Of a stretch of 64,000 nt of DNA, positions 2,024 to 59,257 are shown piece by piece; the stretch's first letter is position 1, and each line of letters opens with the position of its first letter. Where the stretch lies: assembly GCA_024434115.1 (NCBI GenBank), contig QMIT01000007.1, forward strand, positions 62,001-126,000, read 5' to 3'. The position numbers and the translations under genes are program-made. A model generated the notes under the pieces. It made no database searches, had not been told where the DNA came from, and saw nothing but the letters and a program-made list of their open reading frames with translations. Source of the DNA: Chloroflexota bacterium (lineage in GTDB: Bacteria > Chloroflexota > Anaerolineae > Aggregatilineales > J027).

Positions 2024-2397
2024 TGCGGGGTAGAGCAGTGGTAGCTCGTCGGGCTTAAGTTACAGGTTTGGGCAAGTCAGCAAATATGCTGGCAGATTTC
2101 AAAATTATCCGCACGCTATTTTGAAGTCTTTGAGCCTAACACTGTATGGGCTGCACATTGGGAAACTGATGTGTGAACTCCTATCAAATTCGGGGAAGCC
2201 GCTTGCGGGGTAATCCCGAGCCAAGCCTCAAAGCAAAAAACTTTGGGGAAGGTGTAGAGACTAAATGGTAGGCACCTAAACAGCCATCAAAAGCTGAATG
2301 GTGAAGAGATAGTCCAGACCACAAACTATCATGGGCAGTGAAAACTGTAGTGGTAAGCATAACCCGGAGGTCGCAGGTTCGAGTCCTGCCCCCGCTA
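2024..2397 (+). tRNA. Initiator tRNA-fMet (CAU), interrupted by a group I intron
   Basis: Exons are 2024-2055 and 2358-2397. Joined, they fold as a tRNA with anticodon stem TCGGG/CCCGG, anticodon CAU, and T arm GCAGG-TTCGAGT-CCTGC. Three features mark it as the initiator: the first acceptor pair is mismatched (T1 x T72), the anticodon stem has three stacked G-C pairs (GGG/CCC), and the D stem has a purine-11:pyrimidine-24 pair (A-T). The intron lies between U33 and C34, just 5' of the anticodon. The discriminator base is A and CCA is not encoded. This tRNA delivers formyl-Met to start codons, so splicing would be essential unless another copy exists elsewhere. Confidence 0.9.
2056..2357 (+). 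ncRNA. Group I self-splicing intron (302 nt) in the tRNA-fMet anticodon loop
   Basis: The 5' exon ends in U and the intron ends in G, as group I introns require. An internal guide sequence GGTTTGG at 2065-2071 pairs with the exon end UCGGGCU, placing a U-G wobble at the splice site (P1). The core contains TAATCCCGAGCCAAGCC (2211-2227), matching the P4/P5 region of tRNA-type group I introns. TCGGG upstream pairs with CCCGA in the core. GACTA (2259-2263) can pair with TAGTC (2310-2314) as P7, in the typical contexts AGAGACTAAATGG and GAAGAGATAGTCC. The pattern resembles subgroup IC3, as in cyanobacterial and plastid tRNA introns. No homing endonuclease ORF fits in it. Confidence 0.9.
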
Positions 2398-2408
2398 CTT
2401 AAAATTAG

Positions 2409-2434
2409 CCGCCATTTTTTGTGGCGGTTTTTTT
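2409..2434 (+). terminator. Rho-independent terminator after tRNA-fMet
   Basis: CCGCCA (2409-2414) pairs with TGGCGG (2422-2427) and is followed by seven T residues. The hairpin lies 11 nt after the tRNA 3' end. Confidence 0.85.
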
Positions 2435-59084: not shown

Positions 59085-59168
59085 ATGACCGATTCACTTG
59101 ATCCCCGACCTGAAAACCTGAAGCAGCGTGTTTGGGATGCTGGCATTCTTGCCCTATCAACCTTTTGA
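59085..59168 (+). CDS. Possible 27-aa ORF ending at the tRNA-Sec-like sequence
   Basis: ATG 59085 has TTGGAG about 10 nt upstream and encodes MTDSLDPRPENLKQRVWDA followed by GILALSTF, ending at TGA 59166-59168. The sequence looks protein-like, with an amphipathic helix, as if it were the start of a longer gene now interrupted by the tRNA-Sec sequence. It may equally be chance. No homologue can be named. Confidence 0.3.
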   Translation: MTDSLDPRPENLKQRVWDAGILALSTF

Positions 59169-59257
59169 TATGAGCGCCGAGGTGGGCTTCCCGGTCTTCA
59201 AAACCGGTGACGGGCAGCGTGCCTGTCCGTGGTGGGTTCGACTCCCATGTATTCCCG
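59164..59257 (+). tRNA. Selenocysteine tRNA (UCA)-like sequence with imperfect 5' acceptor strand
   Basis: The anticodon arm is CCGGT-CTTCAAA-ACCGG with anticodon UCA. A long variable arm (GACGGGC/GCCTGTC, seven pairs), a T arm (GTGGG-TTCGACT-CCCAT) and discriminator G follow, all as in bacterial tRNA-Sec. The 3' acceptor strand is GTATTCCC (59249-59256). The 5' strand expected from the layout is TTTGATAT (59164-59171): five of eight positions pair, but the three outermost are T x C mismatches, and the D stem is also imperfect. It may be a pseudogene, an integration remnant or a divergent functional tRNA. No selenoprotein machinery is in the window. Confidence 0.6.

Follow-up and report, generated by a model that had tools for sequence, protein, structure and literature searches.

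A group I intron in the only initiator tRNA gene found in a Chloroflexota bacterium, a probable recent horizontal gain

In cyanobacteria, the gene for the initiator tRNA (tRNA-fMet) may be interrupted by a group I intron, as in Synechocystis PCC 6803 and Gloeobacter (Biniszkiewicz 1994 and Paquin 1997, as cited in PMC3610870 and PMC8450103). The Synechocystis intron is 655 nt long and encodes the 150-residue I-Ssp6803I (PMC1995217). In the description of tRNAscan-SE 2.0, where cyanobacterial cases are cited, a group I intron hides the fMet or Ile2 tRNA in 36 genomes, and group I introns are also noted in tRNA-Ile(CAU) genes of Acidovorax and Burkholderia (PMC8450103). For a further group I intron found in the anticodon loop of a tRNA gene, an ancient origin was suggested (PMC3610870). 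Chloroflexi are unmentioned in PMC3984707, where group I introns of bacteria are reviewed, and the one paper of the searchable literature in which both Anaerolineae and group I intron occur is on tmRNA, to judge from its title and abstract.

Here, we describe such an intron in a member of the Anaerolineae, i.e., in the phylum Chloroflexota, as the earlier note had presumed. Our reading, to which we assign a probability of roughly 94% on the basis of sequence comparison, is that a group I ribozyme of the fMet family, 302 nt long, interrupts a single-copy tRNA-fMet gene, was gained recently by horizontal transfer and is spliced to give the CAU anticodon loop. Elements of this kind are already known, while a Chloroflexota member and the breadth of the family across phyla appear to be unreported in the searchable literature.

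The window, i.e., the whole stretch of 64,000 nucleotides that was analyzed, contains the initiator tRNA(CAU) as two exons on the forward strand, 2024-2055 and 2358-2397, separated by a 302-nt insert (2056-2357) between U33 and C34. The 5′ exon comprises tRNA positions 1-33 and ends with CGGGCU, while the 3′ exon extends from C34 to A73, with the CAU anticodon first, and encodes no CCA at its end. These boundaries are set by a BLASTN comparison with the intronless orthologous loci of four congeners, in which the alignment breaks exactly at 2055/2358. Since the intron begins with U and finishes with G (omega-G) and the exons meet as U/C, where the slash marks the splice site, no other placement of the junction fits. 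The joined exons, which are identical to those of the congeners, are identified by ARAGORN as tRNA-Met(cat); the split gene was not seen when the same program was run on the window. The initiator hallmarks are found in the joined exons, i.e., U1 and U72 are unpaired, A11 pairs with U24, and G29-G31 pair with C39-C41. On all these points, from the coordinates and the intron length to the splice site and the initiator hallmarks, the BLASTN break and the ARAGORN result bear out the earlier note to the base. Upstream, a pattern search identified a promoter-like site on the forward strand (1981-2009; TTGACG and TATTCT spaced by 17 nt) that is retained in the intronless congeners; with one such site observed and 1.0 expected from shuffled sequences, this signal is weak alone. 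Downstream, a hairpin resembling an intrinsic terminator (2407-2429, forward strand) is also retained in sequence in the congeners. Together, the two frame the tRNA as a putative single-gene unit.

The claim that the insert is a group I intron was confirmed with the covariance model. RF00028 matches 2128-2335 on the forward strand with 63.5 bits (E 9.1e-14; full model, 1-253), where the gathering score, i.e., the curated cut-off, is 50, and this is the sole match to the model in the whole genome, a draft of 5.28 Mb in 22 contigs that is 97.4% complete. The placement of P1 by Rfam, where the alignment starts at 2128, was rejected; the model misplaces this helix because its loop is long. P1 was instead redefined from the minimum-energy fold and from a GGGC in the guide sequence that is invariant in an alignment of 69 initiator-tRNA introns, which spans the region between this guide and the 3′ splice site. 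The 5′ strand of P1 (GGCU/UA, 2052-2057) places the splice-site U-1 in a U·G pair, its 3′ strand is the internal guide sequence UGGGCU (2147-2152), and the intron ends with a G at 2357, all as in group I introns.

The structure drawn on the 302-nt intron, composed of P2-P9 and P10, is paired at 91% across the 69 introns, and changes on both sides of a pair occur in 650 cells, compared with 186 after shuffling and 59-143 with slid partners. This strong covariation supports the pseudoknotted P3/P7 core of a group I intron together with P4-P6 and P8-P9. Pairing is 100% in P3, P4 and P7, with both-side changes in five of six pairs of P3 (2180-2185 with 2267-2272) and in three of five pairs of P7, the guanosine-binding helix (2259-2263 with 2310-2314). 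The P4/P5 domain is found at 2190-2219 and a P9b hairpin with a GAAA tetraloop at 2336-2347, both also placed with the help of covariation (for P9b together with the alignment). In P10, UAUG (2145-2148) can pair with the CAUA that opens the 3′ exon; here, 67% of the cells are paired while the exons are invariant, and conservation is weak except for the last G. All these elements are on the forward strand. Similarity to other tRNA introns suggests subgroup IC3, and the host gene, the U33/C34 site and the homology of the core place the intron in the bacterial tRNA-fMet intron family.

From this architecture we infer self-splicing. The precursor would be transcribed as one unit, and the guide UGGGCU (2147-2152) would pair with the GGCU at the end of the 5′ exon, forming the U·G pair at the splice site. 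A guanosine bound in P7 would then attack after U33, and the freed U33 would attack behind the G that ends the intron, whereby the two exons are ligated and the CAU anticodon loop is completed. The spliced exon junction at this locus would read GGGCTCATAACCC.

In the host genome, two of the 45 matches to the tRNA model carry a CAU anticodon, neither of them with the GGG/CCC anticodon stem; from a comparison with Escherichia coli sequences, we take these two to be the elongator tRNA-Met and Ile2. The genome contains a single 5′ half and a single 3′ half of an initiator, and no intact initiator was detected with exact patterns or with the tRNA model in the 97.4%-complete genome, although variant copies could escape the exact patterns. 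This search upholds the earlier claim that there is no second initiator copy. A missed intact copy in the draft genome is unlikely. It would make room for a reading in which the split gene is a nonfunctional pseudogene, with the intact initiator residing in the unassembled part of the 22-contig draft. We consider this reading exceedingly improbable, given the lack of an intact initiator by either search, the sequence identity of the exons to those of the congeners, the intact core helices, and the distribution of the two forms of the gene. Among 154 genomes of the order, exact patterns identified a split initiator in seven, an intact one in 100 and both forms in none, and an intact copy was also absent, by the same patterns, from 48 of 50 split-gene genomes elsewhere, drawn from a named genome collection. 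This mutual exclusion is strong evidence that split genes work, i.e., that splicing happens, and since no intact initiator was found, splicing of the initiator is almost certainly essential to this host, as judged from the gene inventory.

The same locus is intronless in all four congeners, of which three have a flank identity of about 90% and the fourth of about 78% (range ~78-92%); in the bins that lie up to 50 nt from the junction, identity to the congeners is 98-100%. Given the four empty sites, the simplest reading is a gain in the host lineage, and the intron is most likely a recent lateral gain in this species. The earlier note left open both inheritance by descent and reverse splicing; reverse splicing is still among the routes of entry, but old descent does not fit. 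That the intron is old and was precisely lost in every congener could be argued from the related introns that other families of the order carry in their initiator tRNAs; this history would, however, demand several independent exact losses to account for the four empty sites, and it has to accommodate the intact initiators in 100 of the order's 154 genomes, which makes it very unlikely. A probable kind of donor for the recent gain is indicated by the intron tree, where the host intron groups with the initiator-tRNA introns of G059 (99/81) and the host, G059, G043 and G056 are found together (93/90 for the four), the families of these relatives differing from that of the host. Because the nearest relatives are initiator-tRNA introns of other families in the order, the source is most likely another Anaerolineae initiator-tRNA intron, i.e., horizontal spread within the Anaerolineae. 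A tRNA-Ile(CAU) gene is a very doubtful donor in comparison. In ten of the 154 genomes of the order, such genes match the split pattern at the equivalent bond, with the same adjoining exon bases (GGCU/CAUAACC), so that one guide sequence could serve both the initiator and tRNA-Ile(CAU). Yet initiator tRNAs are the hosts of all the closest introns, those of tRNA-Ile occupy other branches of the tree, and the Ile2 gene of the host is intact. Entry may have occurred by homing with an endonuclease acting in trans, by homing followed by loss of the endonuclease, or by reverse splicing; no foreign co-conversion tract was seen beyond the tRNA around the insertion site, an absence that does not distinguish reverse splicing from homing.

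Other group I introns and tRNA genes were observed in these genomes. RF00028 matches in three congeners (G002-G004) were rejected as orthologous introns, being located in a protein gene that we take, from a reading frame recognized by eye, to be thyX-like (L002, L006 and L008, in G004, G003 and G002, respectively); in the host genome no thyX-like-gene intron was found with RF00028. Within the order, tRNA-Ile(CAU) genes carry a group I intron just before the CAU (L004, L007, L009-L013, L015 and L194-L204), and in two tRNA-Arg-like genes (L005 and L014) the anticodon loop is interrupted by a group I intron. The window also contains a tRNA-Sec gene (59167-59253; RF01852, 48 bits, cut-off 47; anticodon tca), with a protein kinase gene on one side and a TetR-type regulator on the other. 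A further tRNA gene, L057 (G000:C1:383562-383673), has a CUA anticodon and is labeled tRNA-Pyl by ARAGORN; no match to PylS above the family cut-off was found in the same genome, and the gene is possibly an amber-reading tRNA or an odd tRNA. L056 (G000:C20:1024-1148) is a tRNA-Leu with a seemingly eight-base anticodon loop (ARAGORN: tcag, SeC or Leu).

The family was searched in one-per-species bacterial and archaeal genomes using an initiator 3′ half with a G before CAU. At least 114 records match this pattern and, among the matches listed, about 100 are preceded by a proper 5′ exon of an initiator with GGGCT at its end. The earlier note was right about a U33/C34 intron in an initiator tRNA, but the setting is not special, as the same bond is split in these approximately 100 initiators under some 17 phylum labels among the matches listed, many of them from metagenome bins in which single assignments may be wrong; the cyanobacterial cases were described long ago (PMC1995217, PMC3610870, PMC8450103). 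The labels include Cyanobacteriota, Bacteroidota, Nitrospirota, Omnitrophota, Chloroflexota, Rhodothermota and Planctomycetota; none of the viral contigs match the split-gene pattern. G-preceded initiator 3′ halves without a 5′ half within 1500 nt were found in Bifidobacterium (L068 and L130) and in Acidobacteria (L074, L098, L100 and L112), and are possibly attachment-site copies from integrated elements, or mark longer inserts.

Among the matches listed, the introns fall mainly into two size classes, of about 190-345 nt and of about 645-660 nt. A PD-(D/E)XK protein of ~150 residues is encoded by most introns of the larger class, and the one such protein that was searched matches I-Ssp6803I (PDB 2OST, E 4.9e-63; Pfam PF11645). 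An initiator-tRNA intron of 952 nt in a Desulfatirhabdium bin (L160) has an ORF of 225 residues that does not resemble the usual PD-(D/E)XK endonuclease. With an HMM built from 23 endonucleases, clear remnants were identified in six short introns, which indicates that the endonuclease was lost repeatedly. The host intron has no ORF and no remnant detected by this HMM, in agreement with the earlier statement that it lacks an endonuclease gene, so this copy is probably unable to home on its own. A suspected remnant of an endonuclease C-terminus in the host intron (WAAH.ET.V before a stop, seen by eye) gave no HMM match and was rejected.

More broadly, the U33/C34 bond is a recurrent home of one mobile intron/endonuclease family, found under some 17 phylum labels among the matches listed and, with few exceptions, in genomes where no other initiator gene was detected. 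The clean recent gain, with the intron in one species and nearly identical flanks at the empty sites of four congeners, makes intron entry accessible to study near the event. Standard tRNA finders overlook split genes, and a "missing" initiator in a draft genome can be one that is split by an intron. As the cell would depend on splicing for its sole initiator tRNA, the ribozyme might also act as a condition-sensitive gate on translation initiation (responding to, e.g., Mg2+, GTP or temperature), kept in many phyla for this reason and not merely tolerated; we regard this idea as highly improbable.

Among the closest known systems is the cyanobacterial tRNA-fMet intron; with the cyanobacterial members recovered here, the host intron shares the host gene, the U33/C34 bond and a homologous core (about 70-77% BLASTN identity). 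The cyanobacterial introns are about 244 nt without an ORF and 655 nt with one (PMC1995217), whereas the host copy, in another phylum, is 302 nt with a longer P1 loop and no ORF. The intron of I-Ssp6803I (PD-(D/E)XK, PDB 2OST, PF11645) belongs to the same family, of which the 645-660 nt members carry the endonuclease, including two from Anaerolineae (L082 and L080); in contrast, the host copy has neither an endonuclease gene nor a detectable remnant. The tRNA-Ile(CAU) introns of Azoarcus, Acidovorax, Burkholderia and Anaerolineae have a similar core, and those of Anaerolineae also reside before the CAU anticodon, but they interrupt another tRNA and occupy another part of the intron tree. In Azoarcus, the tRNA-Ile(CAU) intron sits after the anticodon. 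The further known anticodon-loop intron resembles the host intron in its position in the anticodon loop of a tRNA gene, where it is found inside the anticodon of another tRNA.
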